From NCBI GenBank assembly GCA_017163975.1, contig JAFFSR010000249.1, forward strand, positions 7,774,001-7,838,000: DNA of 64,000 nt, in the 5' to 3' direction. Shown one piece after another: positions 896 through 61,758 of the stretch (the stretch's first letter is position 1; each line of letters opens with the position of its first letter). This DNA is from Anastatus disparis (lineage: Eukaryota > Arthropoda > Insecta > Hymenoptera > Eupelmidae). Below the pieces are notes generated by a model, which made no database searches, was not told the origin of the DNA, and worked only from the letters and a program-made list of their open reading frames with translations. A program made the position numbers and the translations under genes.

Positions 896-3384
896 TGTGA
901 TCTAGAAGTACCAAACAAGACAAAAGCTTATATTTCAGAATCTTTGAATATATGGCATGAAAAATTGGTACATCAAAATTCTACAAAAGTTAAAAGTATA
1001 CTAAACAATCATGATATAAAGCTATCAAGTAATGATTGGTCTTTTTGTGATGCATGTGCAATAGGAAAAGCACATAGATTACCCTTTCCAAAAGGTGAAT
1101 CTAAGTCGAGTAAAATAGGTGAACTTATACATGTAGATGTCTGTGGAGCAATACAAGAAAATCCTTAAGTGGATCAAGATACTTCTTACTTTTTAAGGAT
1201 GATTATTCACATTATAAATCAATCTATTTTATAAAACAAAAACCAGATGTTACAGCTTGTATGGAAGAATACATTCCCAGTCAAAAAAGGTTAGCTATAA
1301 AATATAGCTAAAAAAATAGTTAAATATATAGCTATATCGAGCTGTTTTTACAGCTATATCGATGTGTTTTTTTAGCTGTTTTGTACAGTTAAAAATGTAC
1401 TTAATTTTATAGTTAATAATTTCATTATCTACCGAAAATATTAATAGCTACCTTTTCAACTATATTTTATAGCTATTATTATGGTTAAAAAAAACACTTA
1501 AATTTTTAGTGTATTTATTACAATATATTAATAGCTAGATATTTAACTATACTTTATAGCTGAAAATAAATGGTTTTTTAGATATTCTTTATAGTTATCA
1601 ATATACCTAAATTTTTAATTGATAATTTGGTTATTACTCATAGATATTTAGCTGAAAAAACATGAATATTGCTATAATATAAATGAATATAGCTGTATTT
1701 TACTTATATTGTTAGCTGTTTATATAGATGTTTTTTTGACCGAGAACAGCTGAAAATATAACTGTAATTTCAGCTGTATTTTTAGCTGTTTTTTAGCTAT
1801 ATTTTTAACAATTTTTCTAGCTGAACATTATTAGAGTAGCTTTCAGATATACTCGAGTTTATTTATATTGTCCTTCCCTTCCTTCGCTGTAAATTGATTA
1901 ACCTATGCATACACTAAATCTAAGTAATAATGTCGCAGGGGTCGCTAGAAAACACGCGCGCATTTTTTAGTAACGGTTAGATGGATCGGTCTTATATACA
2001 AAGTGTACTCAACTCTCACCACTTGTGGGAGTTGGACACAAATTTCAACGAGTCAAAACAGCTATATTTTAAGCTTAATTTTTAGCTAATTTTTTTAGCT
2101 AAACGTTTTTGACGCGTTGAAATTTGTGTCCAACTCCCGCAAGTGGTGAGAGTTGAGTACACTTTGTATATAAGACCGATCCATCTTACCGTTACTAAAA
2201 AAAGCGCGCGTGTTTTCTAGCGACCCCTGCGACATTATTACTTAGATTTAGTGTATGTATGGGTTAATCAATTTACAGCGAAGGTAGGGAAGGACAATAT
2301 AAATAAACTCGAGTATATCTGAAAGCTACTCTAATAATGTTCAGCTAGAAAAATTGTTAAAAATATAGCTAAACAACAGCTAAAAATACAGCTGAAATTA
2401 CAGTTATATTTTCAGCTGTTCTCCGTCAAAAAAAACATCTATATAAACAGCTAAAAATATAAGTAAAATACAGCTATATTCATTTATATTATAGCAATAT
2501 TCATGTTTTTTCAGCTAAATATCTATGAGTAATAACCAAATTATCAATTAAAAATTTAGGTATATTGATAACTATAAAGAATATCTAAAAAACCATTTAT
2601 TTTCAGCTATAAAGTATAGTTAAATATCTAGCTATTAATATATTGTAATAAATACACTAAAAATTTAAGTGTTTTTTTTAACTATAATAATAGCTATAAA
2701 ATATAGTTGAAAAGGTAGCTATTAATATTTTCGGTAGATAATGAAATTATTAACTATAAAATTAAGTACATTTTTAACTATAAAAAACAGCTAAAAAAAC
2801 ACATCGATATAGCTGTAAAAACAGCTCGGTACAGCTATATATTTAACTATTTTTTTAGCTATATTTTATAGCTAACCTTTTTTGACCGGGTTAAGAAAAC
2901 TGAGAAGCATTGTACTCAAGGAATAAAAGTAATAAGAACCGATAATGGGTTAGAGTTCATAAACGAAAAAGTATCCAATATTTTGAAGAAATTTGGTATT
3001 ACACACCAACGTACAGTTGCTTATTGTCCAGAACAAAATGGTTCAGCAGAAAGAGAAAATAGAACCATAATAGAAGCAGCACGTACAATTTTGTATTCAA
3101 CAAATTTTAAGTTAAAATTTTGGGCAGAAGCAGTAAATACTGTTACATATGTATTAAACCTTACAGGAAACAATTCAATAAAAGATAAAACTCCTTATGA
3201 GTTATGGAACAACAGTAAAGGAAAAATAAACCATTTACATGTTTTTGGTGAATTAGTTTATGCTCACATTCCCAAGATTAAACGTCAAAAACTAGATAAA
3301 AAATCTGAACTTGGATATTTCATTGGATATGCTGAAAATACAAAAGGATATCGCATATGGTTTCCACATTCAAATAAAGTCTAA
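896..3384 (+). pseudogene. copia integrase, interrupted by a palindromic element
   Basis: The GAG-pre-integrase zinc-binding region (His pair in HEKLVHQ, Cys pair in CDAC) lies in 944-1100. The first catalytic Asp of the DDE core is in HVDVCG near 1135. A frameshift near 1165-1168 moves the reading into another frame, which runs to 1275. Element A then intervenes, and the frame resumes at 2893 with the second Asp (RTDNG, about 2937-2951) and the Glu (NGSAERENR, about 3038-3064). A TAA at 3382-3384 ends the open stretch but the same frame continues into RT. The integrase would insert the cDNA; this copy is dead. Confidence 0.92.
1276..2890. mobile_element. Palindromic element A (AGCT-type arms), 1615 bp, inside copia integrase
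   Basis: The ends are CCCAGTCAAAAAAGGTTAGC on the left and its near-perfect inverse on the right (GCTAACCTTTTTTGACCGGG). TT at 1274-1275 and 2891-2892 is a 2-bp target duplication: without the element and one TT, the integrase frame runs straight through. Both arms (about 600 bp) repeat AGCT-centred words such as TAGCTATAAAATATAGCT and TAGCTGTTTTT. The core (about 1860-2320) is a separate inverted repeat with higher GC, containing GCAGGGGTCGCTAG and its inverse. No ORF of note. It belongs to the CCC/GGG group also found at 10830, 12437, 14781, 37436, 41309, 46729 and 60112. Confidence 0.9.
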
Positions 3385-5713: not shown

Positions 5714-6714
5714 AGTTCCATAATTCAATAAGTACTATATAAAATTATTTTAATAAAGATTAAAAATTCGGGAAACTGCAATATCGGTTACTATGTATTA
5801 AACATGTACCTTGTTACATCACCTTAAGGGTATGGTTTCACGCTACTTTACCGATCGAAAATTATAATTTTATATAATTACAATTTTTGAAAAAACTATA
5901 CATCGGAATGAGTTTTCCTTTTATAGATCACTTCATTTAATTTCGATGAAGGGCGGAAACTCTAAAAATTAGCGGAAAAAAGCGTTAATCGAAGATAATT
6001 AGAAAAACAAATTTCTCAGTTCGAAAAAATCAAATTTCTCAAAACCCGTGTTTCGTAGGGAAATTTCCTATTCAGGATCATTTTATCTTTGAAAAATGAA
6101 GGGCGGAAACTTGGTTTGATAAATCATATCGTAAAAAAGCAAAATTACATTTTTCTAAAAAGATGCGATCAGCTGTAAGAATACAATGGCCGTGCAAGAA
6201 GCCATGTTTCATAGTTGGCATCAATGCTAATGTATAGTTTGGTACGCGCCAACTTCAAATTCGAATTTTAAATGTAAATTGAATTTGTTTTATGTACAAT
6301 TTCTACAAATGAACACTTTTTCAACATAAAACTGTTTTATTTTATTTGAAACATAAATATGTAAAAAATTTAATATTATAAGAGAGAACGATATAGTTTA
6401 CATCATTTGCGAACTCATTATTTTTTTTTAATTTTCATTATAGCAAAATAAGTAATCTATTCGTTTCTTTGTTTGAAACAAAATATTTTTTGAATGACTT
6501 TATTGAATTAGCGAAACTTTGGCATATCCTAACCTTTTTAGAATGAAAATATGTTTTGAAAAGCGAATGATAAGGATTACTTAATTTTATTGCTAATATA
6601 ATTTTATTATATAATATAATCTCATCAAATATTATTTTATATTATCGTTCTTTAAAAATAAACAGTTGTAAATAATTTTATTAAGATAAGCCCATATGGA
6701 AAAAATTTCTGGAA
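5714..6714. other. Non-coding AT-rich stretch
   Basis: No credible ORF. The phrase GAAGGGCGGAAACT occurs twice (near 5947 and 6100). I see nothing else assignable. Confidence 0.5.
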
Positions 6715-10829: not shown

Positions 10830-11200
10830 CCCTACTAAAAAATCTCAGGTGAGAAATCACCTGATTTCTCAGGTGATTAATCATGCCAAAATCTCATGTG
10901 ATGATTTTTTTGGTTTTTACACGTTTCAAAGCATACTTAGTCAATTGCGAACTATTTTTGAAAATTTTTGAAAAATTAAACTTAGAAAATTTTTTGTAAA
11001 ATGAGTCAAAATTTTTTCTAAGACCAAATTTTCAAAAAATTTTCTAAGTTAAAATTTTTCAAAAATTTTCAAAAATAGTTCGCAATCGACTAAGTATGCT
11101 TTAAAACGTGTAAAACCCAAAAAAATCGTCACATGAGATTTTGGCATGATTAATCACCTGAGAAATCAGGTGATTTCTCACCTGAGATTTTTTAGTAGGG
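10830..11200. mobile_element. Palindromic element B1 (TCAGGTGA type), 371 bp
   Basis: It begins CCCTACTAAAAAATCTCAGG and ends with the inverse, flanked by TA at 10828-10829 and 11201-11202. The arms contain CACCTGA/TCAGGTGA words, and the middle is a near-perfect long palindrome around AAAATGAGTCAAAATTTTTTC. Related copies are B2 (12607) and B3 (14422). Confidence 0.9.
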
Positions 11201-12436: not shown

Positions 12437-13439
12437 CCCATATGGAAAAAATTTTTGGATATAATTGTAAATAACTGTTAATAACTGTAAATAAATGTAA
12501 ATAAATATAAATAACTGTAAATAACTGTAAAAAAGTGTTAAAAAATGTGGGAATTGAGACATAAATAACACTTATTTACAATTATTTACAATTATTTACA
12601 GTTATTTCCTACTAAAAAATCTCAGGTGAGAAATCACCTGATTTCTCAGGTGATTAATCATGCCAAAATCTCATGTGACGATTTTTTTGGTTTTTACACG
12701 TTTCAAAGCATACTTAGTCAATTGCAAACTATTTTTGAAAATTTTCCACATGTACCACATGAACCAAAAAAATCGTCACATGAGATTTTGGCATGATTAA
12801 TCACCTGAGAAATCAGGTGATTTCTCACCTGAGATTTTTTAGTAGGGATTTACACTTATTTACAATTATTAACTGTTATTTACACTTATTAACTGTTATT
12901 TACACTTATTTACAGTTATTTATATTTATTTACAGTTATTTAAATTTATTCACTTTTTTCACAATTATTCATAGTTATTTACGATTATTTATAGTTTTTT
13001 ACAATTATTTGCAGTTATTTACATTTTCGAAAATATTCACGAATTTATTCAATAATTTTATATATAGGCGAAAATTTTTAAAAATGTGAATAACTGTAAA
13101 TAATTGTAAAAAACTATGGAATTATTAATAACATTAAATTATTCCCTAATTCAAAAATTTTTGAAAATGTAAATAACTAAATAATTATGAATAATTGTAA
13201 ATAATTATAAAAAACTGCAAATAATTGTAAATAATTGTAAATAATTGTAAATGACTGTAAATAACTGTAAATAACAGTTAATAATTGTAAATAACTGTAA
13301 ATAATAGTAATTAATAGTAAATAATAGTAAATAACTGTAAATAACTATTATTTATGTCTCAATTCTGACATTTTTTAACAGTTATTTACAATTATTTACT
13401 ATTATTTACAGTTTTTCACATAAATTATTTCCATATGGG
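12437..13439. mobile_element. Palindromic element F (TGTAAATAACTG arms), 1003 bp
   Basis: The ends are CCCATATGGAAAAAATT and the inverse ...ATTTCCATATGGG, with AA duplicated at 12435-12436 and 13440-13441. The left arm repeats GTAAATAACTG/GTAAATAATTG units; the right part has the inverse TTATTTACAGTTATTTACA units. Element B2 is inserted at 12607. Removing F and one AA leaves the transposase frame in phase across the site. Confidence 0.87.
12607..12847. mobile_element. Palindromic element B2, 241 bp, inside F
   Basis: It has the same ends as B1 (left TCCTACTAAAAAATCTC, one base changed; right inverse ending GTAGGG). It lacks most of the central palindrome of B1 and B3. The target duplication is unclear because the left end is mutated. 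Confidence 0.82.
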
Positions 13440-14421: not shown

Positions 14422-14766
14422 CCCTACTAAAAAATCTCAGGTGAGAAATCACCTGATTTCTCAGGTGATTAATCATGCCAAAATCTCATGTGACGATTTT
14501 TTTGGTTTTTACACGTTTCAAAGCATACTTAGTCAATTGCAAACTATTTTTGAAAATTTTTCAAAAATTGAACTTAGAAAATTTTTTGTAAAATGAGTCA
14601 AAATTTTTTCTAAGTTCAAATTTTTCAAAAATTTTCAAAAATAGTTTGCAATTGACTAAGTATGCTTTGAAACGTGTAAAAACCAAAAAAATCGTCACAT
14701 GAGATTTTGGCATGATTAATCACCTGAGAAATCAGGTGATTTCTCACCTGAGATTTTTTAGTAGGG
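14422..14766. mobile_element. Palindromic element B3, 345 bp
   Basis: Close copy of B1, with ends CCCTACTAAAAAATCTCAGG and its inverse. TA is duplicated at 14420-14421 and 14767-14768. Only 14 bp separate it from element C. Confidence 0.92.
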
Positions 14767-14780
14767 TAAATATAAATATT

Positions 14781-16123
14781 CCCTGTTGAAAATGATAACG
14801 TTATTTAATGACGTCATTTAATAACGTCATTTCATCAAATGACGTTGCAAATTGAGACATTTCGCGACGTCATTTATGCAAATAACGTCATTGTTCAAGT
14901 GAGCTTTGATGGCCTATTAAATTAAAAAAAGACGTTATTTTATATTTCAAAATGACGTCGTTGTTTCCAAACGACGTCATTTATTTTGATGACATGATTT
15001 TTAGAGATGACGTTACTCGTTATCAAAAACACGGGGGTTATAGTGGGAAATGACGTAACTTTTTCAAATGACATGATTTTCTGAAATAACGTTATTCGTT
15101 ACCGAGACAGATCTGTAGAATGACGTCATTTTTATAATACTAATAACGTCATTTCATTACGTTATTTTCCCTGTTGAAAATAATGACGTCTTTCTAAGAC
15201 GTCATTTTCTCCAAATTTAGGAAAAATAACGTCATTTTTCATGAATTATGACATTGAAAAATGACTACATAATAATCATTTCTCATTTAAAGGAAAAAAC
15301 AAAAACGAGGTAAATCTCGTAGTTTCAACTTTTCAAAAAACAAAGAGCATTTGCGATTAAACTGAAAACGTTCTGGCCTTATATATCTGCGTCTTTGAAA
15401 TTTGTATAAGAGATCGCAAAACTTCAAAATCGCCACCTGGTGATTTAAAATTAAATTAACGCAATCGACTATCAATTCGACTGTAAGTCACTAGGTGGCG
15501 TTTTTTTAAATTTTCTGATCCTTGATGCAAATTTCGAAGATGCAGATATATAAGGCCAGAATGATCTCAGCTTAATCACAAATGCTCTTCGTTTTTCGAA
15601 GAGTTGAAACTACGAGGCTTACCTCTTTTTTGTTTTTTCCTTTAAATGGAAAATGATTATCATGTAAAGTCATTTTTCAATGAAATAATTCATGAAAAAT
15701 GACGTTGATTTTCTGAAATAACGTTATTTCATAAAATCATGTCATTTGAAAAAATTATTTATTATTAGTCATTTCCCACTATAAATCACATTGTTTTGAT
15801 TACGAATAACGTCATTTGTGAAAATCATGTCATTAAAAAAAATAACGTCATTTTCCCACTATAAATATCACGTCTTTTTGATAACAAATAACGTCATCTC
15901 TAAAAATCATATCATCAAAATAAATGACGTCGTTTGGAAACGACGACGTTATTTTGAAATAACGTCCTTTTCTTAATTTAATAAAAGCTCACTTGAACAA
16001 TGATATTATTTGCATAAATGACGTCACGAAATGTCTCAATTTGCAACGTCATTTGATGAAATGACGTCATTAAATGACGTTATTAAATGACGTCATTAAT
16101 TAACGTTATCATTTTCAACAGGG
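14781..16123. mobile_element. Palindromic element C (TGACGTCA arms), 1343 bp
   Basis: The ends are CCCTGTTGAAAATGATAACG and (right) CGTTATCATTTTCAACAGGG, with TT at 14779-14780 and 16124-16125. Both arms are crowded with ATGACGTCAT and ATAACGTTAT words, each a palindrome. The core, about 15280-15650, is a different inverted repeat containing ACGAGGTAAATCTCGTAG and CACTAGGTGGCG; it is homologous to the core of element E. A second internal CCCTGTTGAAAATAATGACG near 15169 suggests an earlier partial insertion. Confidence 0.9.
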
Positions 16124-16179: not shown

Positions 16180-16506
16180 CCTATATGAAAATAATTTCTG
16201 TGAATATCTGTAAATAACTGTAGATGATTGTTGAAAAATTTTAGAATTGAGACATAAATAGCAGTTACAGTTATTTAGTATTATTTACAGCTATTTTCAA
16301 TTTTTTACAGTTATTTACAATTATTTACTACTATTAACATTTTTAAAATCATAAATTCGTAAATAATTTATTTTTATTTATAGGTATTTATAATTATTTA
16401 TAATTATTTATAATTATTTTCAATTTTTTACACTACAGTACTTTACAGTTCTTAACAGTAATTTAATGTTATTGGCAATTATTTATAAAAATCATTTCTA
16501 TATGGG
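16180..16506. mobile_element. Palindromic element F2, 327 bp
   Basis: The left end CCTATATGAAAATAATTT and right end AAAATCATTTCTATATGGG resemble the ends of F. AT flanks both sides (16178-16179, 16507-16508). Inside are TGTAAATAACTG and TTTACAGTTATTT units and the phrase GAATTGAGACATAAATA, also present in F. Confidence 0.75.
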
Positions 16507-37435: not shown

Positions 37436-38623
37436 CCCTGTTAAAAAAGTCCAGGTGGATTTCCACGTGGAAAATCCACGTGGAATTCCACGTGGATTTT
37501 CAGTCTGATTTCTCGGATTTTCAGGGTGATTTACTTGGATTTTCAGGGTGAAAATCAGGGTGGAATTCCAGGTGGATTTTCAGGGTGAAAATCAGGTTAG
37601 AATTTTAAGGGGATTTTCAGTCTGAATTACTTGGATTTTCATAGTGAAAATCCACTCTGATTTTGAGTCTGAAAATCCACTCTGATTTTCATAGTGAAAA
37701 TCCACTCTGATTTTCAGTCTGAAAATCCACCCTGATTTTCATAGTGAAAATCCACTCTGATTTTCAGTCTGAAAATCCACCCTGATTGTGGATATTTTTA
37801 AGCATTCAAAAAAATATTTTTATCAAATTAAATTTATTTATGTTTTTCATTGCAACCACAAAAATATCTCTGCTCACTTAATAGAATAGAACGTGAGAAA
37901 GTAGGCCGAATGATCGTCGTTTTAGACAAAATTAAACTGTTAGTTTATAAGCTCTAAAGTCTTTTATTCTTTTCATGCGCGTTGGCTTGCCATAAGAAAG
38001 TCAATACATAAAAAGCGTGGTAGCCCCCTAGTGGTTAGTTATTGAATATGAATATACACATGTATATAATAGTACTGATGATTAACCGTTAGGGGGATGC
38101 TCCGCTTTCTACCTATTGACTTTCTTATGGCAAGCGAACGCGCAACGAAAAGAATAAAAGACTTTAGAGCTTATAAACTAACAGTTTAATTTTGTCTAAA
38201 ACGACGATCATTCGCCCTACTTTCTCACGTTCTATTCTATTAAGTGAACAGAGATATTTTTGTGGTTGCAATGAAAAACATAAATAAATTTAATTTTATA
38301 AAAATATTTTTTTGATTGCTTAAAAATATCCACAATCAGGGTGGATTTTCAGACTGAAAATCAGAGTGGATTTTCACTATGAAAATCAGAGTGGATTTTT
38401 AGACTCAAAATCAGAGTGGATTTTCAAGTAATTCAGACTGAAAATCCCCTTAAAATTCCAACCTGATTTTCACCCTGAAAATCTACCTGGAATTCCACCC
38501 TGATTTTCACCCTGAAAATCCAAGTAAATCACCCTGAAAATCCAAGTAAATCAGACTGAAAATCCACGTGGAATTCCACGTGGATTTTCCACGTGGAAAT
38601 CCACCTGGACTTTTTTAACAGGG
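37436..38623. mobile_element. Palindromic element D (CCACGTGG/AATCCAC arms), 1188 bp
   Basis: The ends are CCCTGTTAAAAAAGTCCAGG and (inverse) CCTGGACTTTTTTAACAGGG, with TC at 37434-37435 and 38624-38625. The arms repeat words such as GAAAATCCACTCTGATTTTC and TCCACGTGGA. The core (about 37785-38340) is another inverted repeat around ATAGAATAGAACGTGAGAAAG. It is inserted in the right arm of K. Confidence 0.92.
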
Positions 38624-41308: not shown

Positions 41309-42546
41309 CCCTACTGAAAAAATCCACCTGGATTTCCACGTGGATTACCTATGTAGAAATCCATATGGATTTTGGATGGATCCCATGTGGGTTCGCATAG
41401 GAATCACCCACGTGGATTACCCACGTAGATTTCCACGTAAAAAATCCATGTGGATTTTATGAAAGCCATGTTGATTTTATAAAACCCTCGTGGACTGTTA
41501 AAGAATCCATATGGGTTTTCTGAAATCTATGTAGACTTTCAAGGAACCCGCATGGATTTTATAAAATCTATGTTAATTTTATGTACTCCTCGTGGATTTT
41601 TAAAAAATCCATATGAATTTTATGAAATCCATGTGGATTTTTAGGTAATCTACGTAGATTTCTTTACTTGAATATCCACGTAAATTTGAATGAAAATCTG
41701 TGTTAATTTTATGTACTCCTCGTGAATTTTTAGGTAATCTACATAGATTTTTTACTTGAATATCCACGTGGATTTAAATGAAAATCTACGTAAAAATACA
41801 CGTGGATATTTTGAATAGGAAATAACTCAATATTTATTTCGCATTCAAAGTAAAAACCAAAAACGAGGTAAACCTCGTAGTTTGAAGATTTTTCTTTGAA
41901 ATTTGTATGAGGGATCACAAAACTTAGAAAAACGCCACCTATAGATTCAAAATAGAATCGATGTAATCAATCATCAATTCGACAGTAAGTCACAAGGTGG
42001 CGTTCCTCTAAGTTTTGTAATCCATCATATGAATTTCGAAGTCGCAGATATATATGACCAGAATACTCTCAGTTGAATCGTAGAAGCTTTCTGATCTTCA
42101 AAGAGCTGAAATTACGAAGTTTACGTTGTTTTTGGTTTTTACTTTAAATGCGAAATAAATATCGTGTTATTTCCTATTCAAAATATCCATGTAGATTTCC
42201 ACGCGAATTTTCATTTGAATTCACGTGGATATCCATTAAATAATTTACGTTAATTATCTAAATATCCACATGGATTTCACAAAATCTAGATGGGTTTCTT
42301 AAAAATCCATGCGGGTTCCTTGAAAATCCACATAGATTTCATAAAATCCATATGGATTCTTTAACAGTCCACAACAGTTTTATAAAATCAATATAGCTTT
42401 CATAAAATCTACATGGATTTTTTTACGTGGAAATCCATGAAGGTAATCCGCGTGGATTCCTATACGAATTCACATAGAATCCATGTGAAATCCACGTGGA
42501 TTTCCACATGAGTAATCCACGTGGAAATCCAGGTAGATGTTTTCAA

Positions 42547-43242
42547 CAGGGCCGGTCTAACACTACCTGGGGCCCGGGGCTACAAAATCATGGGGGCCCA
42601 TCATGATCATGAAATAAGGGTGCTATTTCATTATAAATTACGAAAAATGGGCATTTCTTCATATAGAATTTTATAATTTTTTATATGTATATATAATAAT
42701 TTTTTTAATTCCTATTAATAATTTACAAAAAAATTATTGCTTACATAAAGAAAAGTAAATACAAAATTATAAAAGATATAAAAAAAAGTACGAAGTTATT
42801 AGATCAATACTTTAAATTTTTTATACTTTATGATTTAGGATATGTAAAATACATTTCAATGATTATTGAAAGTGTAGAATTATAAATATAGTATTTATTG
42901 TTACTTTATTAATTTTATAAAATAATTATGAAATATAATATTCTTATTTTTATAAAAAAATAATAAAAAATGAATTCAAAGAATTATAAAATAATTAAAA
43001 GAATTGATAACTTTGAATATAGAAATAAATATTTTAATTTAATATTAAAATTATTTTCTAAACAAAAAAGTTTCCATATTTTTAATAAATGTGATGATAA
43101 GTAGATTACAATTATAAAATATAAAATTCATTATACCGATATCTTAATAAGTGAAGAAATACATGTAAAGCTAGGACACTTAACATTGAAAAAAATTCGA
43201 GTTTTTTCTAGTATTATTAAAAAAATCCTATTATTGTGTAAT

Positions 43243-43296
<54 letters not shown>

Positions 43297-44155
43297 TCAG
43301 CTTAGAAATAATTTTGATGATGTTTATAAAAAATAATAAAAATAATAAGAAAACAATACTTTGATTAAGATTAAATATTTATCATAATTAAATTTTTTAT
43401 TTCACAAAGAATAAAAAGATTATTTTTTTTTAAATATCAAAATTGTTTCAGCGGTGCCCCTGAATCAGTGGGGTCCGGGGCTTCAGCCCCCCCTAGCCCC
43501 CCCGTTAGGGTGAAATCAGATGGAGCGGAAAATAGACGACGGAACGTCACAAAACATTCATTCCGTCGCCTTGTTTTCCGTCAAATTTTTTCCCTATATT
43601 CACATGGCGCGGAATGTAGCTGAAAAATTGTTAAAAATAGCATACAAATGTATCCGCGAATTTTAAATTAACAACAAAAATGTTAAAAAAGTTGGAAATA
43701 ATCACCTATTGTTATTGTAATGAGATTCTTTTTTTATAAAAATAAAATATAGTTTGTTATTATAACCAAATATTTCAATTAACATCATTATTTTTTAATT
43801 ATAAAATTGCTAATCAACGTCACAGAACTTCTATTCCGCTCCATGTGAATATAGGGAAACAAATTTGACGGGATAATAGAAGCGTCACAGACTTTTTGAA
43901 ATTGTTTAAACAAATAGTTAACCAAAATAGAATTTAAAAGTTTGATTGAAATTAAAAGTACAGCTATGGAAAGCAAATTAAAAATATTTCGTGAGGTTAT
44001 TGAAGCACTAATAATTTTTTTAAACAAAAAAATTGATGTCGTCGATTACGTCGTCTTTACTCCGTTGGCGGAATACAAAGATGCGGAATTGAGGTTCTGT
44101 GACGTTCCGTCGCCTATTTTCCGCTCCATCTGATTTCACCCTTAGTCAGGGCCTG
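42547..44155. mobile_element. hAT-type MITE with 8-bp target duplication, inside E
   Basis: It begins CAGGGCCGGTCTAACACTAC and ends with a degenerate inverse (GTTAGTCAGGGCCTG, itself split by a further insertion). GTTTTCAA is duplicated at 42539-42546 and 44156-44163. GGGGCCCGGGGCTAC near the left end and GGGGTCCGGGGCTTC near the right are typical of such MITEs. An (AAT)n run lies at about 43244-43296. No transposase. Confidence 0.9.
43508..44141. mobile_element. Harbinger/Tourist-type MITE with TTA duplication, inside the hAT MITE
   Basis: The ends GGGTGAAATCAGATGGAGCG and its exact inverse are flanked by TTA at 43505-43507 and 44142-44144. A 3-bp TTA/TWA duplication with GGG ends fits PIF/Harbinger. 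A second inner inverted pair (TTCCCTATATTCACATG.. near 43588 and CATGTGAATATAGGGAA near 43842) makes it a double palindrome. The 634 bp are non-coding. Confidence 0.9.
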
Positions 44156-44256
44156 GTTTTCAATAGGGTAGAATCAAGAAAAGAAAAAAAATTTAATTTA
44201 ATCTTAGCCGATCTTATATTACCATGTACAGTGATTTAGTTTCTAAAATTTTGTGA

Positions 44257-46728: not shown

Positions 46729-48267
46729 CCCCAGCGGAAAAAATAAACGAAAGTAATTGAAAATTTCTGAAAGAAACTGAAAGAAACTGAAAGAAACGGA
46801 AAGTTCTTGTGAAAATTGGGACGAAACAATTGGTACATTTTAAACTGTTTCAGAAATTTTCGGAAGTTTTCTGAATATCTCATTTTATATCATTTTCTAA
46901 GTGGATATAGAAAAATCAGCTGTCATAATCATTTTGGCTCATTTTATTTTTTTTTAATTTATTTTAATTTTTTTAGTTTCATTCTTTTGGTTTCAGTTTC
47001 TTTCTATTCGTTTTCATTTCTCTCGTTTTCTTTCATTTAATTTCAGTTTGTTTCATTTTATTTCATTTTTCCTTAAACCAATTCAGTTTTTTTCTGAATA
47101 TTTCCAAAACTCTTGTAATTAATCAGATTATTTCATTTTAAATTTGGAAATAAGTAATGAATTGTGAAAACTGAAACAAAATGAAACATACGGAAAATTT
47201 TTGTAAAATTATAAAATAATTGGAACATTTTGAATTTGTTTTAAAATTATTACAAGTTTTCGGTATTTTTCATTTTATTCAATGTTAAAAGTAAATATGG
47301 AAAAAATTAGATTTCATACAAATTCCGATTTTTTCAGTTTGTCTCTATCTGTTTCGGTTTTATTACAAAGTTTTATTACACAGCAAATTCTAACTTTATT
47401 TAAAAGAGGGGGTTAAAGTTTTCAGATATGCTATTGTGGACGTTAAAAAACATAAATTTAAGTTAAAAAACAAAAATTTCATTTTTTATGTATGTATAAA
47501 CAAAACTTTATTTGTAAAATTAATTTATAATAAAAATAATTTTCTAGATCATAGTTTTGTGATATGTTTGTTTAACAAAAAAATGTCTGTTGAAATAGTT
47601 GAGTATTAACGATTTCCCAGTCTACAATTTCAAGCTCGATTCCTTTTTTAAGTGGGCTCAAAATCGAGTTTTTAGCTTGAAATTTTTGATTAAGTCGAAT
47701 TTCAAATACTGAAATATTAAATTATTTAACAGGTTAAGTACACTGAGAGAAAATTCATGCCAATAGAGCATGTAGTCTACGTATCCAAAGTTAGTAAGTA
47801 ATATCCTATGCTTTAATAACAGCGCCATCTACTCTTACGAGGTTTGTGCTATCCAAAAACTGTTTGTTTACATGCTTTAGTAGCTCCCCACTCTAATATC
47901 CTTCGATAGCTAGCGCTGTATCCTCTCATGGGACGTGAAGGAAGTAAACGTGGCTTGTCCACTATTCTTTCTTTACTGCTAACTATGGCATTCTTCTATT
48001 GCTCAAGTCGCCTCCTCTTTTGGGTGGCGACGCGAGCAAACACGGCTGGTCTATATCCAAAATCATGTTGCAAATTTCGTTAACGTATTTTCGTAGCGTG
48101 AATCTTTTATTTCTTTTCTTTTCTTTTTTTATGAAGGGAGATACGTTATAAATATAACCTGTTAAACTTTTTAACTTTAAATAATTAATTTTTAATTTAA
48201 AATTTAATTATTTTAAACCGCTGGGGGGCAGATGAGCATGTACGATTTTACGCCAGAGATATTTCGA

Positions 48268-48343
48268 AGTAACGTTGGTCTAGTGCGTAACGTTCACGCT
48301 TTTCCTTTTGAGTACGCGAGTTCAATTCTCGGCTAGGGTCTTT
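48268..48343 (+). other. tRNA-like segment (one of an inverted pair)
   Basis: GTTGGTCTAGTGCGTAAC resembles a pol III A box and D arm, and GCGAGTTCAATTCTCGG a B box and T arm with a good stem. A TTTTTTT terminator follows. The acceptor stem does not pair, so this is a tRNA relic, perhaps the head of a SINE. Its inverted partner is at about 48912-48987. Confidence 0.65.
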
Positions 48344-48911
48344 TTTTTAATTTTTTTTTTATTATTTCGATAGTTTTTATTGCTTTTTTTTATTTATATT
48401 TTTTTTATTTTCTATTTTTTTATTAATTTTAAAATCTATTTTTTCACAAGTTACTTAAAATATGCTCGTTTTTTTTATTAATATTTTTAAATAAATTATT
48501 TCATATGGGAAATAATTTAAAATATTAATAAATAAATAATAGTGATATTTACAATACTATAGTTCAGTTTTGTCTTTATAAACATATTTCAATATACAAT
48601 ATATATTATAACATAAATAATAATAACTCAGTTTTATTTATTTATTGTAATTTATTGTAAATTTTATAAACTAAATTATAAATAAATTAAACTATACTAT
48701 TATAAAATAAACATCACTATTATTTATTTATCAATATTTGTAATTACTACCTATAAAGAATAATTTATTTTTAAAAATTTCCATTGAAAAAACAAGCGTA
48801 CTTGTGAAAAATTAAATTTTAAAATTATTAAAAAAATACAAAATCTAAAAAAAAATAAATATAAAAAGGAATAAAAAATATTAAAACAATAAAAAAAAAA
48901 TTTTTTAAAAA

Positions 48912-48987
48912 GTGACCCTAGCCAAGAGTTGAACTCGCGTACTCAAAAGGAAAAGCGTGAACGTTAGGCACCAGACCAACGCTACTC
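48912..48987 (-). other. tRNA-like segment, inverted partner
   Basis: Minus-strand copy of the segment at 48268-48343, with GTTGGTCTGGTGCCTAAC and GAGTTCAACTCTTGG. It lies in the opposite arm of the foldback element and likewise runs into a T-rich stretch. Confidence 0.65.
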
Positions 48988-50183
48988 CGAAATATCTCTG
49001 GCGTGAAATCGTACATGCTCATCTGCCCCCCAGCGGTTTAAAATAATTAAATTTTAATGTAAAAATTAATTATTTAAAGTTAAAAAGTTTAACAGGTTAT
49101 ATTTATAACGTATCTCCCTTCATAAAAAAAGAAAAGAAAAGAAATAAAAGATTCACGCTACGAAAATACGTTAAAGAAATTTGCAACATAATTTTGGGTA
49201 TAGACCAGCCGTGTTTGCTTGCGTCGCCACCCAAAAGAGGAGGCGACTCAAGCAAACATAGGATATGAGAGTGGGGAGTCATCGAAGTATACCACGCGTG
49301 TCGTCAGTGAATGCCGTTCATGCTTTAGTTACTCTCCATACCATCTTTTTTAGTTTAAGGTAATCCAATACTAATAGAGCTTCTCACGGCCTGTCATATT
49401 TGTATCAATGTTTTATATGCTCGCATAGATGGCAGTTCGCATGCTCTATTAGCATGAATTTTCTCTCAGTGTATATATTTCAAATTATTATTATCAATAA
49501 ATGTTATTTTCTAATATTATTCGTAAAATTTAAAAAGTTTTGGTAAGATTCGGAATGCTTTCGAATTTTTCCGAAAATTTCTGAAAATTTCCGAGTGTTT
49601 TCGAGAGTTTCTGAGAATTTCTAACAATTTCTTTACAAATTTTTTAATAATCTAATTAAAACACTTAAATAATTGGAATAAATCCAAAAACTTAAAAAAA
49701 ATAGGGAAAACTTTTGGAAAAATTTGAAAAGTTTGGAAAAAATTAGAAATTAATTAAAATACTCTAAAATATTCTGATTATTTCAATTAATATTCTAAAA
49801 GATTCTGGAAAAATATGAAAAAATTCATAAAGTTCTAAGAAAAATTGAAAACTTCTGAGAAATTTTGAAAAATTTTGAAGCCATCCGAAAATTTCCGAGA
49901 GACTCCGAAATATTCTGAATATTTATAGAAAATAAATGTTTAATTATGGAAAGAATCTAAGATATTTTGTAAAAAAATGAAAAGAAATGAAAATAAATGA
50001 AATATACCGAAAAAAGCGGAAACAAACTTGAATACTTTGAATGTCTCGTCCCAATTTTACCAAAGTCTCTCCAACCGATTTCAATTCTTACTGTTTCTTT
50101 CAGTTTCCCTCATTTTCTTTCTGATTATTTCTAAAACTTTTCGAATGATTTCAAGTGTTTCATTTATTTTTCCCGCTGGGGAT

Positions 50184-55203: not shown

Positions 55204-55410
55204 TCAAGTATTCTCAACACACTCTATACAATCTCTTTTCAGAGGGGGAAATGAGCCCTGCTCTGTGTGTTCACGACAACGCAAACAAGCCTGAATTTCA
55301 GGATCACGTTTCAACTGTTCAGGAATTTTATCCCAGGCCTGTTCAATACTTTTTGCTCCAAAAGTCGTGAGAAAAGATTTGGGTAGGTAAGCTATGTCAG
55401 CAGGGCTCAT
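55204..55410 (-). CDS. Small Cys-rich protein in the Polinton left block
   Basis: 68 codons. A helical N-terminal half (FLTTFGAKSIEQAWDKIPEQ) is followed by a Cys cluster CLRCREH...C-x2-C that may bind zinc (residues about 43-65). It sits 18 bp downstream of the 170-codon gene and just upstream of the PPP1R15-like gene, on the same strand. I do not recognise a named family. The compact three-gene run suggests a shared transcript. Confidence 0.55.
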   Translation of the reverse strand: MSPADIAYLPKSFLTTFGAKSIEQAWDKIPEQLKRDPEIQACLRCREHTEQGSFPPLKRDCIECVENT

Positions 55411-55428
55411 GAATGACAGATGCTCCGT

Positions 55429-55941
55429 TTAAAAGAATTTTCTGAGTGATCGCTCAAGCGACGGTGTATTATCGAGAAAGTATTTCTTTAACAGAAGCAC
55501 GTTACGATGAGCACAGTGTACTTTGAAGGAAAACTTATGATGTGGACATAACTTTTCCAATATATTATATTTTAGTTTTTGTAATGATGGAAAACCAAGA
55601 GTTTCGAGGTCACATACGTGAAAGCCAAACTGTTCGAGCCACTGTTTTTTCTCACTACCCTTGACGTATACAATTTGCGCATCACTCAATATTTCTCGTA
55701 GAACATTCTCGAGTTCTTCGTATGGCAATTCATTTGAAGTCCAAGACAATCCGTGGTAATTTCGCTCCAACCACAAGTTCGTAGATTTATATTTAGCAGA
55801 AAGTCTACACCAAGGTTGTGGTGATTTAAACATAAATACCAATGTTCTCGAATTTTCGCGGAGTGGAATTATTGCCAATTCTTTCACAACAAAATCGTTG
55901 ACAGGCTGCTTAAAACCTTGTACATCCAACACGTACTCCAT
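55429..55941 (-). CDS. 170-aa Polinton-associated protein, possibly RNase H-fold
   Basis: The frame starts MEYVLDVQGFKQPVNDFVVK and is open for 170 codons. The pattern of a strand with Asp near the start (YVLDVQGF), a distant VYVKGSEKKQWLEQF, an Asp-Leu-Glu (CDLETLG, about 112-117) and a Cys/His cluster (CPHHKF, CAHRNV) resembles proteins widespread in arthropod genomes next to Mavericks. The acidic residues are compatible with an RNase H/exonuclease fold, but I cannot show catalytic residues. It has its own promoter region facing the capsid gene, now occupied by a MITE. Confidence 0.6.
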   Translation of the reverse strand: MEYVLDVQGFKQPVNDFVVKELAIIPLRENSRTLVFMFKSPQPWCRLSAKYKSTNLWLERNYHGLSWTSNELPYEELENVLREILSDAQIVYVKGSEKKQWLEQFGFHVCDLETLGFPSLQKLKYNILEKLCPHHKFSFKVHCAHRNVLLLKKYFLDNTPSLERSLRKFF

Positions 55942-56026
55942 TGTGACTGACTACTGCTGCAGCTTCACGTCTTAATTTATACTGATCCCCCACCTCTAGA
56001 TAAGTTTATTAACATCCCCACTTATA

Positions 56027-56326
56027 CACTGAAAAATAAGTGGGAAAGAAGCACTACCATCGGTAACGAAACTATACTCTTTTCGTTTCGTGCGCACAGA
56101 GTGCCACTGCGGGAAAACAGTGGTGCCACTGTGGGACGAGAGGAGTACTTCGCATGACGCCAAAAGAAATCCCACGTGAGTGGGAATACACATGCACAAC
56201 AAAAAGAGCTGTTAGCTTCGACAGTGGGGCGTCACGTTCCCCACGAGAGAAAGCATTAGCATTCTTACGGTTTCGTGGAGCAGAAGTACTTCGAGGGACT
56301 CCTGGACTACCACTTATTTTTCAGTG
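56027..56326. mobile_element. 300-bp MITE at the 3' end of the capsid gene
   Basis: The ends CACTGAAAAATAAGTGG and the exact inverse are flanked by TA at 56025-56026 and 56327-56328. The interior is not palindromic. The ends resemble those of foldback element K (CACTGAAAAAAA). The insertion lies in the last codons of the capsid gene, so the present stop codon comes from the MITE. The original frame would have run about eight codons further. Confidence 0.9.
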
Positions 56327-57530
56327 TAGAATTATATTCAACAATACGATCGTGTAAAATCAAACAGTAGGCTGAAGTTCCAGCTGGAAAGTCTTGTTTA
56401 ACCTCAAATTCAAGACGCACGTCCACTGGAGCCTGCTTCAATGACTCATTCTGTTTGGAGCAATCTATGACGATAAGAGAAGCGTGAGTTAAGAATTCAT
56501 TCTTTTTGAGTAAGGGTTCTGCTTCCTTATTGTAGTATACACTTTGGAAATTCATATACATATCATACAGTAGAGCGTATTGATTACGAGCAACATCAAG
56601 ATTCAAATTTCCATAAGGATAATACTGAGAGTTGAGAAAGAGTTTGACGTTGCTTATATTGCAATGATCAAAACGACTTGCATTGGCACTTCTCTGTCCT
56701 TTACGATTGGTCTGAAAACCTATAATGACAAAACGTGGCTTTTCCAGCTGATTCGATGTTTTTACAGACCAAACGTGCTTTGTAGTGCTTGGGAGTAGTG
56801 GATATTCATATAGCTCCCATGAGCGAAAACTCATAGCAATAGGTTTATCTTTCTCCAAATACTTGAGTAACTGTATCTTAGACTTGTCCGATACAATTAC
56901 ATAAGGCATCAGCCACTCTATTTTAATCAAGTCAATCTTGAAATTCTCGAAATTTAGTTGACCAGTTAGCAATGTTTGTATAACGGAATTGACATCGTCC
57001 CTCGATCTAGTGAGAATGAGTTCATGCTTAGTGTTCACTACAATTTTTCGATGATCTTCGGTAAAGCCTAAAATCATACTCAGAGGTATCGATACATCAA
57101 AGTATCCCTCATCATCTGTAAGCTGTTGATTCTCTTCGATATCAAGCCAGCCAGCATTCTCCAAAAGATGGCTCTGACTAGGATTGAATGACACCAGACC
57201 TTTCATAATACTCGTCAAACCCACATTCTTACATCGATCAATTTCAATTGCATTTATTTCATATCGAATCTCTTCAAAGAGATGACAGATGGCGTTATTC
57301 ACTAATTTTGTATTCGCGACAGCAGTATTGTTAGTTTTACACAGTCTTCCACGAACGTGTAAGGAGCTGCGAGATGGTAGAAGACTGAGATCTTGATGTT
57401 GTATTGATATGCGAATCTCATCGCTATTGTTATACGCTGATGGAGTATACGGTTGATGAGCATGAATCTCGTAATGTATCACAGACTCATCGAAATTAAT
57501 AGGTGATTGTATGTTTAGTATTTCCGCCAT
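56307..57530 (-). CDS. Polinton major capsid protein candidate (double jelly-roll)
   Basis: I take the Met at 57530 (MAEILNIQSPINF) as start; nine upstream codons are open but look like leader. The protein is about 407 residues, rich in strands, and includes YEIHAHQPYTPSAYNN, LSLLPSRSSLHVRGRL and NVKLFLNSQYYPYGNLNL. It resembles the conserved Polinton protein that arthropod annotations call F54H12.2-like, which structural work on Polintons identifies as the double jelly-roll major capsid protein. It would build the virion shell. The frame is intact except that a MITE replaces the last few codons. Next to the penton-like gene, as in other Polintons. Confidence 0.75.
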   Translation of the reverse strand: MAEILNIQSPINFDESVIHYEIHAHQPYTPSAYNNSDEIRISIQHQDLSLLPSRSSLHVRGRLCKTNNTAVANTKLVNNAICHLFEEIRYEINAIEIDRCKNVGLTSIMKGLVSFNPSQSHLLENAGWLDIEENQQLTDDEGYFDVSIPLSMILGFTEDHRKIVVNTKHELILTRSRDDVNSVIQTLLTGQLNFENFKIDLIKIEWLMPYVIVSDKSKIQLLKYLEKDKPIAMSFRSWELYEYPLLPSTTKHVWSVKTSNQLEKPRFVIIGFQTNRKGQRSANASRFDHCNISNVKLFLNSQYYPYGNLNLDVARNQYALLYDMYMNFQSVYYNKEAEPLLKKNEFLTHASLIVIDCSKQNESLKQAPVDVRLEFEVKQDFPAGTSAYCLILHDRIVEYNSTLKNKW

Positions 57531-57560
57531 TTTTTTTAGCACAGCAAAAGAATGCACAAA

Positions 57561-57722
57561 TTACTTTTTTCCAGGAATGACTCTTAGACCGAGACTTTTG
57601 AGAAACTGGATGTTTTGACGTGTTAGTGCTTTGAGAACTCGATGACGACTGACTACTCGCTGACATGGTGTACTGTTTATATAACCTCTACCAACTTTTG
57701 TATTATTATATACGATACCCAT
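57561..57722 (-). CDS. 53-aa conserved-looking small protein between capsid genes
   Basis: Starts MGIVYNNTKVGRGYINSTPC and ends with LTRQNIQFLKSLGLRVIPGK. It lies 2 bp downstream of the penton-like gene and 30 bp upstream of the capsid start. The end of the form L-T-x-x-N-I-x-F-L-x-S-L-G-L is one I associate with small Polinton proteins at this position. Basic and probably a minor virion or core component (inference). Short, but intact and in the right context. Confidence 0.55.
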   Translation of the reverse strand: MGIVYNNTKVGRGYINSTPCQRVVSRHRVLKALTRQNIQFLKSLGLRVIPGKK

Positions 57723-57724
57723 GT

Positions 57725-58414
57725 TTATGATGCGGGTTTAATGTGTAGTCTGATCGTTATAATTTCACAACGAAAATTAACCAAATCTCCGTCTTGATCT
57801 ACGATACGTAGCTGTATATGATCTATACGATTGTTGCTGATTGGAAGATAAATGACTTGCGATGGTACTTCAATGATTTTATAGCTTGGAGGTACAGCTG
57901 GGAAAAATTCGTGTATAGTGTGTACTTTATGCTCGTTTATATATGCGCCAGCAGTAATATTACATTCAATGCGTAAAGCGTTCACCTTTAGAATGGCTAC
58001 AGGTAAATCAGAATGGTGAACTACGTTTGCAGCTAGAATGCGCTGAGTGAAACCCAACAGTCTGCCGATAGAGTCTTGTGGTTGAAAATCAATCGTGTGA
58101 CTACACTTTATTCTACTACGAAGAGTACTATTATTTGGTTTGAGACTGATATTAATACCTTTTGGTTGAAGAATTTCTTGCAAATAACTCTCGATATCTT
58201 CAATTTCGTAACTACCAGTCGGCAAAGCGATTACTTCCTTACCGACATAAAACTTGTTGTTTCCTGAATCAATGTTGGGTATTGAGTTGAAAGTTAACAG
58301 CTCCACCAATCCAAGAACGTAATTTTTACTCTGTGAAAGTTCAATTCATGGAAAATACTGAGCTTCCAGTATCGATGACGTTCCCGATAAACTCAGAGTC
58401 AATGAATCTTCCAT
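57725..58414 (-). pseudogene. Penton/minor capsid protein (single jelly-roll type), one in-frame stop
   Basis: The natural start is the ATG at 58412-58414 (MEDSLTLSLSG). A TGA at 58346-58348 interrupts after 22 codons, then the same frame is open to 57725 (194 codons from the next Met). Features include LVELLTFNSIPNIDSGNNKF, an LP-x-GSYEIEDIE strand-helix, SIGRLLGF and YINEHKVHTIHEFFP. These match the conserved minor capsid (penton) protein of insect Polintons. It would form the capsid vertices. With the stop it is probably non-functional unless the shorter form works. Confidence 0.72.
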
Positions 58415-58459
58415 GACTGCTCGAACGCTACTGACGTTGATTCACCAATGTACACTCAT

Positions 58460-59085
58460 TTATAAGTTTCTACTTAGAAATTGTAAACATAGATGTCCAC
58501 ATTCGTAAGTATCATAATTTTGATATCTCTCATGATTATACTTAATATTCTTAACTTTGAGGTATTTCATAAGATCTGAGGGTGGTTGTAAGTCCCCAAA
58601 GCTATCAAAGTACACGACATCGTTGCCACGTTTGCGGTAAGCTACCCAATGTGTGCCTGGTCCGCTCTCATCATCCAGATTGATTATTGCCGATTCTCGG
58701 TAATGTGGTCCACCAGTTGACAGTGCGTTTCGCATGAAAACTCCACGGAAATATGGAATTTTCAAGATTCTAGCGTATTTCATTAAATCAACATCAGTTA
58801 GAGCCCGGTTAGGAAGTTTTACATTGAAGCTTTTTTTTTTTTATTTATACGTCCCCCTTTGTAGGGCTTCAAATGAATACCACAGCCTTTTTTGTGTGGT
58901 TTCAAATAAAGACCTTTACCAAGAGCAATAGCCTCCATTGTTTTGTTATGACGTTGACTTTCTTCAAGTTGTCGTTTCGCGGCGCTAGCATCGTTCACAG
59001 CTTTTGCTATACCAGCAGCGCCACCTGCTAATGCGCCCGTAGCACTAATGGTAAAACTAATACATTGCTTACTCTTATCACACAC
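58460..59085 (-). pseudogene. Adenovirus-type maturation protease with hydrophobic N-terminal part, frameshifted
   Basis: The protease domain (58783-58460 and open upstream to about 58830) shows the His in GPGTHWVAY, an Asp/Asn-type residue in VYFDSFGDL and the Cys in YECGHLCLQF, the catalytic order of the Ulp1/adenain family that cleaves capsid precursors. Upstream, 59085-58819 encodes ISFTISATGALAGGAAGIAK (hydrophobic, small residues) and ALGKGLYLKPHKKG. Other Polintons appear to carry both on one protein. Here an A-run at about 58838-58850 puts them in different frames. The N-terminus abuts the broken ATPase, so its start may be lost. Confidence 0.75.
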
Positions 59086-59086
59086 G

Positions 59087-59613
59087 TAAATGGATTGAAA
59101 TTTGAAAACGTCTACGTATATTAAAAATCGCTTTATCAGCCAAAGTACAAGTTTCTCGAGGAACTTCTAGAGCCGGTAAAGGGTATACAATATTTTCCAT
59201 TCAGTGAGCACGAAGCCGTAGTAGCCCCCTAAGACGTTCTTCCAAATTCCATAATGGTGTTTGACGATGTGGCTTGTGAAAAGCAAGACAATATAAGAGC
59301 ATTTTTCTGCATGGGTAGACATAAAAATGTAGATTGTTTCTATCTTTGTCAGTCTTATGCTCATGTACCTAAACATTTAGTTCGAGACAATGTAAATTTA
59401 CTGGTAATATTTAGACAAGATGATATGAATCTCAAGCACATATACAATGATCACGTGAATTCTGATATGTCATATATACAATTCAAGGACTTGTGTTTGT
59501 CATGTTGGGGGGATTGTAAATATGCATTTCTCACAATTGACAAAGAACGTGAGCTAAATGCTGGTCGTTATCGAAGAGGTTTTGACTGTTTTCTAATAAA
59601 TATAGGAAGTTGA
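59087..59613 (+). pseudogene. Packaging ATPase (FtsK/HerA type), N-terminal half missing
   Basis: The C-terminal half is clear: VFDDVACEKQDNIRAFFCMG (Walker B) from 59257, YLCQSYAHVPKHLVRDN and a polar sensor region. Upstream in the same frame GLKFENVYVY and PKYKFLEELLEPVKGI are present but interrupted by TAA at 59122-59124 and 59230-59232. The Walker A part is absent; the sequence runs directly into the minus-strand protease gene. The ATPase would pump DNA into capsids. This copy is dead, with a deletion or rearrangement at about 59060-59095. Confidence 0.82.
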
Positions 59614-59655
59614 GTACAGATCAAGTAGTACTCTGTAGAACCTTGAACAGTCAAC

Positions 59656-61758
59656 ATGGCGAATTTTCAACGTGAAAAAAATATTCTCCATCAGATGGTA
59701 AAATCTAGAGAGGCAATCAAGCGTAAACATAAGCTATTGAAGCAGGGCAAAGCCGATTTCGAAAAAGCTTTCAGTGAAACATTCAAACCTGTTGTTGATC
59801 CACTTGAAAAACTTGTAAACATATCTGAAATAAATAAAAAAAATTTTGAATCGAAAGATAAAACAGAGCATGATTTATCCGAAAATGAGCACTCCTCTGA
59901 AGATGGATACATTTCCAATGATAGGCGAATTGTAAATGAAAATGTTGACGATACAATTCGTCCGGCTGAAACAAGTTTTGAGACAGCTGCAGAAAGTGAA
60001 ACTGACGACGATGATGACGACGATGATGGAAGCGAAACGGATCCGCTTACCAATAAATATCTTTGGATGTTTCAAAAAAATCAAAAATCATATCTAGATA
60101 ATATCTATGGACCCTAGCGGAAAAAAAATGCAGAAAACAGTAAATATCCGAAAATATCAAAAGAAAACAGAAGAAAACTGATAAAAACTGCAGAAAACGG
60201 AAATTAACTGTTGAAAAATGTCGAGATTGAGACAAAGACAACAGTTATCTTCTGATTTCTTCTGATTTCTTCAGTTTTTATCAGTTTTTTGCAGTTATCT
60301 GCAATTATCGACAGTTTTATTCATTTTTCAACGTTTTTCTTCATTTATAAATGCAAATTGAAAAGTGAAGAAATCCGGAAAAAACTGAAGACAACTGTTA
60401 TATTCTGAAAATAACTGTTGAAAAGTGAAGAAAACTGAAGAAAACAGTTATATTCTGAAAATAACTGTTGAAAAGTGAAGAAATCTGAAGAAAACAGTTA
60501 TATTCTGAAAATAACTGTTGAAAAGTGAAGAAAACTCAAGAAAACAGCTATATTCTGAACAAAACTGTAAAAAAGTGAAGAAATCTGAAGAAAAAAGGTA
60601 ATAACTGTTTAAAAATAAAGTAAAATGAAGAAAATTGGAAAAAAAATATTTTTTTACGAAAAAAGTGAAGAAAACAGAAAATAACTGAATAAAACTGATA
60701 ACATCGGCAGAAAACGGAAGAAAACAGTTAATAACTGTTGAAAAATGAAGAAAAGTGAAGAAAATTTAAAAAAAAAAATATTTTCGTACATAAAAAGTGA
60801 AGAAAACAGAAGATAACCAAAGAAAACTGATAATATCGGCAAAAAACTAAAGAAAACAGTTGATAACAGTTGAAAAACGAAAAAAAGTGAAGAAAATTGA
60901 AAAAAAAAAAAATTTTCTTATATAAAAAGTGAAGAAAACAGAAAATAACTGAAGAAAACTGATAATATCGGCAGAAAACTGAAGAAAACAGTTGATAACT
61001 GTTAAAAAACGAAGAAAAATGAAGAAAATTAAAAAAAAATTTTCATTTTTATATAATAAGTGAAGAAAACAGAAGATAACTGAAGAAAACTGATAATATC
61101 GGCAGAAAACTGAAGAAAACAGTTGATAACTGTTGTCTTTGTCTCAATTCCGACATTTTTCTGCCGTTATCTTCTGTTATAAACTGTTGTCTTCAATTTT
61201 CTTCAGTTTTCTCCTTTTTTTTCCGCTAGGGGAGTTCGTAAAATGGGTAGTATGATGATGATTGGTGATTCACCAATAAATTTCGAGAAAGACCATGTGG
61301 TCGTACTTGACACGCAATATCCAAAAACTGTAGGCTTACGAGAATTATTGTTTCGAAAACAGCCAGATAAAAAACTTATTACCGAAGATGATTTGAGAAA
61401 TTATCGAAAAATTGTTGAAATAACGAATGCATATAGAAAGAATTATCAAGCTGATGGATCACTTCGTAAACTAAATAGTAACAAATTTAAAAATTATATT
61501 GCTCCATTTTTCGATAAATCTCCAGCTCGAAAGAGGAAATCGTTTAGTGGAAGGGGTCTCTTACCATGACACAAAATTGCTTACTACAAAATTGCTCGTA
61601 AAGGTACACAAATGGACTACGTGTACTGGGATGACCCCAATGAACTAGTTGATCGCTTACGGCTATTGGTGGCAGAGATAGAAGCTGGAAATCCAAGTCA
61701 TACTAATGAGATTCATTCGATAATCGAAGAACTCCGTGAGGCCAACATTATATATTGA
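59656..61758 (+). pseudogene. Polinton conserved protein, split by element H and one stop
   Basis: The first part (59656-60111) has a helical N-terminus (MVKSREAIKRKHKLLKQGK), an acidic run of eight Asp at about residues 117-124 and a Y-L-x-M motif near the end. Element H interrupts at 60112. The frame resumes at 61234 in phase, with MIGDSPINFEKDHVVVLDTQ and YPKTVGLRELLF, a TGA at 61567-61569, then MDYVYWDDPNELVDRLRLLV and a final stop at 61756-61758. The same arrangement occurs as one protein in many insect Mavericks; its role is unknown to me (perhaps a virion or scaffold protein). Confidence 0.72.
60112..61231. mobile_element. Palindromic element H (GAAGAAAACTG arms), 1120 bp
   Basis: The ends are CCCTAGCGGAAAAAAAATGC and (right) TTTTTTTTCCGCTAGGG, with GA at 60110-60111 and 61232-61233. 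The left three quarters are purine-rich, with repeats of GAAAACTGAAGAAAACAGTT and AACTGTTGAAAAGTGAAG. The right end is the inverse. The insertion plus duplication is 1122 bp, a multiple of three, so the host frame is kept on both sides. Ends match G (CAGCGGAAAAAA) closely. Confidence 0.92.

Follow-up and report, generated by a model that had tools for sequence, protein, structure and literature searches.

Among described transposons, the closest systems are the animal TRC elements, which encode a Transposase_21 transposase and whose termini start with CCC in Schistosoma, Tribolium and Aedes (DeMarco 2006, PMC1636069). SmTRC1 of Schistosoma mansoni showed a 2-bp target duplication in 7 of 14 copies (PMC1636069), and Spongebob, filed as TRC and occurring in Hydra and insects, combines CCC with 2 bp in Hydra (PMC4298943). 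Duplications in the CACTA/EnSpm (CMC) superfamily in general are given as 2–4 bp (PMC4482050), and CACTA miniature inverted-repeat transposable elements (MITEs) with 2-bp duplications but CAC ends are described from polydnaviruses of wasps (PMC6004678). Four further sources (PMC3706591, PMC4592977, PMC2884549, PMC13155389) were not decisive. The 64,000-bp stretch of Anastatus disparis analysed here as a whole (C246:7774001-7838000, hereafter the window) contains eleven delimited elements with CCC...GGG ends, named A to H, which are very probably non-autonomous (MITE and fold-back) members of the animal TRC branch of CACTA/EnSpm. The elements are real and of an already known kind, not an unplaced superfamily. 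The window itself is eukaryotic, transposon-rich DNA and, judged from the repeat content, probably of insect origin.

The window elements resemble published TRC elements in the CCC terminus, the 2-bp duplication, the presence of a Transposase_21 partner and insertion into other transposons (PMC1636069). They are unlike them in the long fold-back palindromes of A–E, in the 3-bp duplications of family B and in that no transposase coding was found in the window copies; a Pfam scan of ten open frames inside G (eight), C (one) and E (one) gave no transposase remnant, the single sub-cut-off match having an E value of 0.059. The left end of A (CCCAGTCAAA) agrees with the Aedes TRC end (CCCAGTCAAC) in 9 of 10 bases, a level reached by 2 of the 528 CCC words of the window. 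With Spongebob/EnSpm-4N1_HM, whose insect consensus is described as partial and non-coding (PMC4298943), the elements share CCC, 2 bp and the TRC/CACTA filing; the Spongebob end (CCCAGCCAACATTGAC) has 8 of 10 bases in common with the left end of A and only 4–6 of 10 with the other window families. The original prediction had held that no superfamily fits these elements. Its exclusion of Tc1/mariner, piggyBac, hAT, Harbinger and Transib was sound, but the claim fails because CACTA/EnSpm was missing from its list, and TRC fits. It had also named a clear match of the ends to a known superfamily as evidence against itself, and such a match was found for CCC and the duplication length, both of which are those of TRC (PMC1636069).

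The two end types proposed earlier were both recovered well above the expectation from dinucleotide-shuffled sequence: at one mismatch or fewer, the type-1 motif CCCTRYTRAAAA gave 18 matches against 3.8 expected and the type-2 motif CCCNNNNGGAAAAAA 8 against 1.2. Along the window, with no strand assigned, the copies are A (1276..2890), B1 (10830..11200), F (12437..13439), B2 (12607..12847, nested in F), B3 (14422..14766), C (14781..16123), F2 (16180..16506), D (37436..38623), E (41309..44168), G (46729..50181) and H (60112..61231). CCC stands at the inverted-repeat ends throughout, with one mutated end each in B2 and F2. Exact 2-bp repeats flank nine of the eleven copies as delimited by script, and none of 20,000 permutations of the flanks reached nine. 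Recomputation returned the duplications first reported for A (TT), B1 (TA), B3 (TA), C (TT), D (TC), E (TA), G (AT) and H (GA). The AT reported for F2 is a tenth 2-bp case when the start is set by eye at 16180, the left end then reading CCT; the scripted start lay one base further to the left, where there is no 2-bp repeat. B2, previously left without a duplication, has 3-bp ATT together with a mutated left end, TCC. All eleven copies can in this way be read with a 2- or 3-bp duplication, F2 only with its start moved by one base.

By the arithmetic of open-frame coordinates, the frames flanking A and H agree once the element and 2 bp are removed, and those flanking F once the element and 3 bp, not 2 bp, are removed. 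The AA read earlier for F is indeed present, but since the flanking frames match only with 3 bp taken out, the duplication is better read as AAA. The statement that three copies interrupt the coding DNA of other elements and leave it in phase upon removal therefore holds for A and H with 2 bp, and for F only with 3 bp. A D-free paralogue of the D site (37330-38750) lies at 27780-28020 on the minus strand; it lacks one TC and 12 further bp besides D, and these extra missing bases rule it out as a clean empty site. The difference may be a deletion, an insertion or an excision scar.

The whole genome (939 Mb, 399 contigs) was then searched for further copies of families B, H and D, the duplications of A, C, E, F and G being known from the window copies only. 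In family B (1257 first-look candidates), a duplication was present at each of the 40 copies scored, window B1 included: exactly 2 bp in 33 (TA 26, TT 3, and one each of AT, CT, GA and CA) and exactly 3 bp in seven (L017, L023, L025, L026, L031, L037 and L041; ATA, TTA three times, TAA, ATT and TTC). For family H there were 672 candidates and 40 scored copies, window H among those scored; 20 loci were fetched, and 17 of them had both ends. Of these, 16 showed exactly 2 bp (TG 4, TA 3, TT 3, GA 2, and AT, CA, GT and AC once each) and none 3 bp. Family D had 563 candidates and 40 scored copies, ten of which were read, all on the plus strand and without the window copy; nine have exactly 2 bp (TA 4, TG 3, GA, CT) and one has no duplication. 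Summed over B, H and D, 42 of 58 two-base duplications are the pyrimidine–purine steps TA, TG or CA. There is no fixed target sequence, but a bias exists that is strongest in B. The claimed 2-bp duplication without a fixed sequence is in this sense confirmed by the three samples, except that its length is not strictly 2 bp (seven of 40 B copies have 3 bp) and its sequence is not free of bias (TA makes up 26 of the 33 two-base cases in B). Viral contigs scanned with the 20-base B end yielded two loci, both chance matches inside genes that appear DnaK-like from their translation.

The same tables refute an assignment to MITEs of ISL2EU (PHIS), piggyBac or Tc1/mariner, to which we give practically no credence: ISL2EU does make 2-bp duplications, piggyBac ends often read CC[C/T]T and B copies favour TA, but the observed duplications include TT, TG, GA, CT, CA, GT and AC as well as 3-bp forms. 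ISL2EU was the first guess, because the gene around F, B3, C and F2 encodes DDE_4 and gives a weak SWIM signal, and was rejected for its AT-only duplication, its usually GG ends and its different transposase group (PMC4482050). The piggyBac duplication is TTAA (PMC2872659), unlike the duplications seen here. A Tc1/mariner origin would demand TA only, and TA makes up 3 of 16 duplications in H, 4 of 9 in D and 26 of 33 in B.

B copies diverge from their own consensus by 4.0% on average (1.1–7.3%), and the 40 scored H copies, the window copy apart, match window H at 97–98%. Six places of D, including that in the window, tie for the best score (652 bits over 361 bp); D has therefore probably moved recently. 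Families D and H look recent.

The original prediction had proposed to look for a larger autonomous relative with the same ends and an open reading frame. A search of the genome with PF02992 (Transposase_21) raised 245 candidates, of which 150 were scored; at least 148 were matches, and among those listed every one except the last exceeded the Pfam cut-off. None of the 14 control genomes had a match. Thirty of these loci were read with 1.5-kb flanks, which are too short to reach most element ends. In wider stretches, two full-length families were delimited (13.4–14.1 kb and 6.4–7.4 kb), both with CCC...GGG ends and with 2-bp duplications in all four copies. For the first, the boundary is the GGG at which sister copies diverge exactly; for the second, it follows from the inverted ends together with the duplication. 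Family one is represented by C373:8065679-8079089 (13,411 bp, TA on both sides, ends identical in 196 of 200 bases, a 765-aa frame) and by its sister C211:4538883-4552937 (14,055 bp, duplication AG). Family two is represented by a 6,398-bp copy on C263 (duplication TG, ends identical in 195 of 200 bases, a 794-aa frame) and by a sister on C276 of about 7.4 kb by coordinates (duplication TA, frame of 607 aa). Both longer frames were taken stop to stop: the 765-aa frame matched Transposase_21 with an E value of 1e-6 and 28.6 bits, exactly the Pfam cut-off, and the 794-aa frame with 2.8e-10. The first 14 bases of the end shared by the C373 and C211 copies (CCCTACTGAAAAAAATC) are also those with which E begins on its left side in the window (CCCTACTGAAAAAATCC). 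The exact ends of B, C and D were not found on any of the autonomous copies delimited.

In the 13.4-kb element, several open frames run opposite to the transposase (L080:1683-4419, plus strand) and may be exons of a second gene. A BEN domain, which these frames seemed to resemble, is unsupported by Pfam, and a protein search of a 5.8-billion set returned 4118 candidates, none with E ≤ 0.001.

Several observations weigh against placing the window elements in TRC. Beyond CCC, the ends of B–H match the three published TRC ends in 5–7 of 10 bases, no better than the CCC words of the window generally. CMC relatives are mostly described as CA..TG-ended with duplications of 2–5 bp (PMC12730594), for which reason CCC sets the TRC branch apart. 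Among the 30 Transposase_21 loci, within their short flanks, type-1 or A-like end motifs occurred in only three and an end pair in none; in two of these three, the motif belongs to an A-type insertion that follows the gene. A third Transposase_21 family (copies on C269 and C318, domain E value 2.1e-12) could not be delimited: on the left it extends beyond the retrieved sequence, and on the right it merges into an AT microsatellite. Mobilisation of the window copies in trans is presumed from the shared ends only. Finally, the type-2 ends (F, G, H) could be linked to no transposase: none of the 30 loci, again within 1.5-kb flanks, showed such an end or an array of clear 10-bp period.

This last null result also speaks for the idea that the two CCC-ended groups are unrelated and have converged, with type 1 (A–E) in TRC/CACTA and type 2 (F, G, H) in a different superfamily with 2-bp duplications that may be undescribed. 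The array periods differ as well (10 bp in type 2, about 12 bp in type 1), and the targets of H are less TA-biased (3 of 16) than those of B (26 of 33). Nevertheless, the two types are alike in the CCC terminus, the A-rich step inward, the duplication length and the style of the subterminal array; plant CACTA subfamilies are likewise reported to differ strongly in array sequence (PMC2613891), and the flanks read around the transposase genes would have missed most element ends. We consider such a convergence unlikely. A superfamily outside all known ones, already disfavoured, is highly improbable: it would draw on the lack of a single fixed target and on CCC being unusual in CMC, where CA..TG prevails (PMC12730594), but CCC with 2 bp is the published description of TRC, and Transposase_21 elements with such ends are present in this genome.

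As an observation apart, both copies of the third Transposase_21 family (L073 and L074) have an A-type element (CCCGGTCAAAAA, with TAGCTA arrays) about 175 bp behind the transposase frame.

The type-1 elements are fold-back structures, with half-arm identities of 0.67–0.96 in A–E against 0.50–0.56 in ten random control segments. A is 1615 bp long, with ends CCC[A/G]GTCAAAAAAGG and the highest arm identity (0.96), and lies inside Copia-like coding DNA. B1 (371 bp, ends CCCTACTAAAAA) and B3 (345 bp) are palindromes. C (1343 bp, ends CCCTGTTGAAAA) contains GACGTC arrays, with 11 of the 17 occurrences of this motif in the window, and a core in common with E. D (1188 bp, ends CCCTGTTAAAAAAGTCC), of which near-identical copies exist elsewhere in the genome, and E (1243 bp, ends CCCTACTGAAAA and CCCTATTGAAAA) both contain CACGTG arrays, together accounting for 13 of 17 occurrences in the window. 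A hAT-like element flanked by an 8-bp duplication (GTTTTCAA) occupies 42547-44155 within E and separates the last 13 bases of E from the rest; the right end of E is 44168, past the nested element, and not 42551, and TA then stands on both flanks. Periods of 12 and 24/25 bp were found in A, B and D (12/25 bp in D), and the arrays of C and E are less regular.

The type-2 elements are organised around 10-bp AACTG arrays. F (ends CCCATATGGAAA) measures 1003 bp including B2, F2 is 327 bp with degraded ends (CCTATATG and CCCATATAG), G is 3453 bp (ends CCCCAGCGGAAAAA and CCCCAGCGGGAAAA) with the 10-bp periodicity near both ends and a second palindrome inside it at 47963-49291, and H (1120 bp, ends CCCTAGCGGAAAAAA), with strong arrays, lies inside a Polinton-like open frame. 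A lone type-2 end (CCCATATGGAAAAAA) occurs at 6691..6705 on the plus strand, with no partner end seen by eye. The description of all elements as palindromic, valid for A–E, does not extend to G and H beyond their ends (0.53 and 0.54); F reaches 0.60 with B2 and 0.68 without it, and F2 0.62. In F, G and H the periods are exactly 10, 20 and 30 bp (z 5.7–16.6; 4.1–8.2 in F2). AACTG has a density of 8–33 per kb in F, F2, the left part of G and H, 2.6 in the right part of G and 2.0 elsewhere. When the window was scanned for the 10-bp period in 700-bp segments, the top 25 segments were all in, or overlapped, F, G or H. In comparison, the 12-bp signal is far less specific: outside D it is weak, and its maximum lies in simple sequence at 35401, further peaks being at 22201 and 48301.

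The arrays and the cores appear modular: E has its terminal 64 bp in common with D (80%) and its core in common with C (77%), and C and D share no sequence at E ≤ 0.001. Plant CACTA elements (En/Spm, Tgmt*) are similar in having short-motif subterminal arrays near conserved ends, the arrays differing between subfamilies, and dissimilar in the CACTA core, the 3-bp duplication and the documented binding of the arrays by TNPA-like proteins (PMC2613891). A Transposase_21 (DDE-type) transposase supplied in trans presumably recognises the CCC ends and excises the element, which would then insert through staggered cuts two or sometimes three bases apart, TA, TG or CA steps being the preferred sites. 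By analogy with plant CACTA, the subterminal arrays (10 bp in F, G and H; about 12 bp in A, B and D) are predicted sites for a second, element-specific DNA-binding protein. The long palindromic copies may be deletion derivatives, kept since both array-bearing ends remain. It is tentatively suggested, as an idea with the odds still against it, that animal CACTA elements are assembled from interchangeable parts: a CCC end recognised by the transposase, an array in helical phase recognised by a separate DNA-binding protein that the element encodes, and a core.

Apart from these elements, the window is rich in other mobile DNA. An interrupted gene at 12240-17690 (plus strand) encodes a DDE_4 transposase domain with a sub-cut-off SWIM signal; F lies in an open frame upstream of this domain, and B3, C and F2 fall between 14340 and 16651, by eye probably an intron. 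The segment around the gene is bordered by 1-kb inverted repeats (7802-8799 and 19335-20335, 97% identical). At 26986-39532, inverted segments of about 1.5 kb, 98% identical and with outer ends TATACACTG, enclose a Copia-like element with 241-bp direct repeats at 29027-29267 and 36547-36787. At 44257-46582 a 385-bp repeat recurs about six times head to tail, its copies 91–96% alike, and a Tc1/mariner-like element at 50939-53909 has a DDE_3 frame of 350 aa and inverted repeats of about 300 bp. The region from about 54100 to 64000 encodes a double jelly-roll capsid protein (PF21738, E value 1e-119) and an rve integrase, with H in one of its open frames; we take it to be a Polinton-like element.

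Overall, the analysis removes a supposed new superfamily and places its elements in the TRC corner with CCC ends, a group that is easily missed where CACTA elements are expected to begin with CACTA. This genome lends itself well to testing the group, with the apparently recent families D and H, long transposase frames, and a family B with two duplication lengths. The 2- and 3-bp duplications side by side in B bear on how rigid the staggered cut is in this group of transposases, and the two array periods allow a concrete test of whether the spacing of an array goes with its DNA-binding partner. Were the modular organisation true, a single transposase could serve several families, with different array-binding partners doing the sorting.

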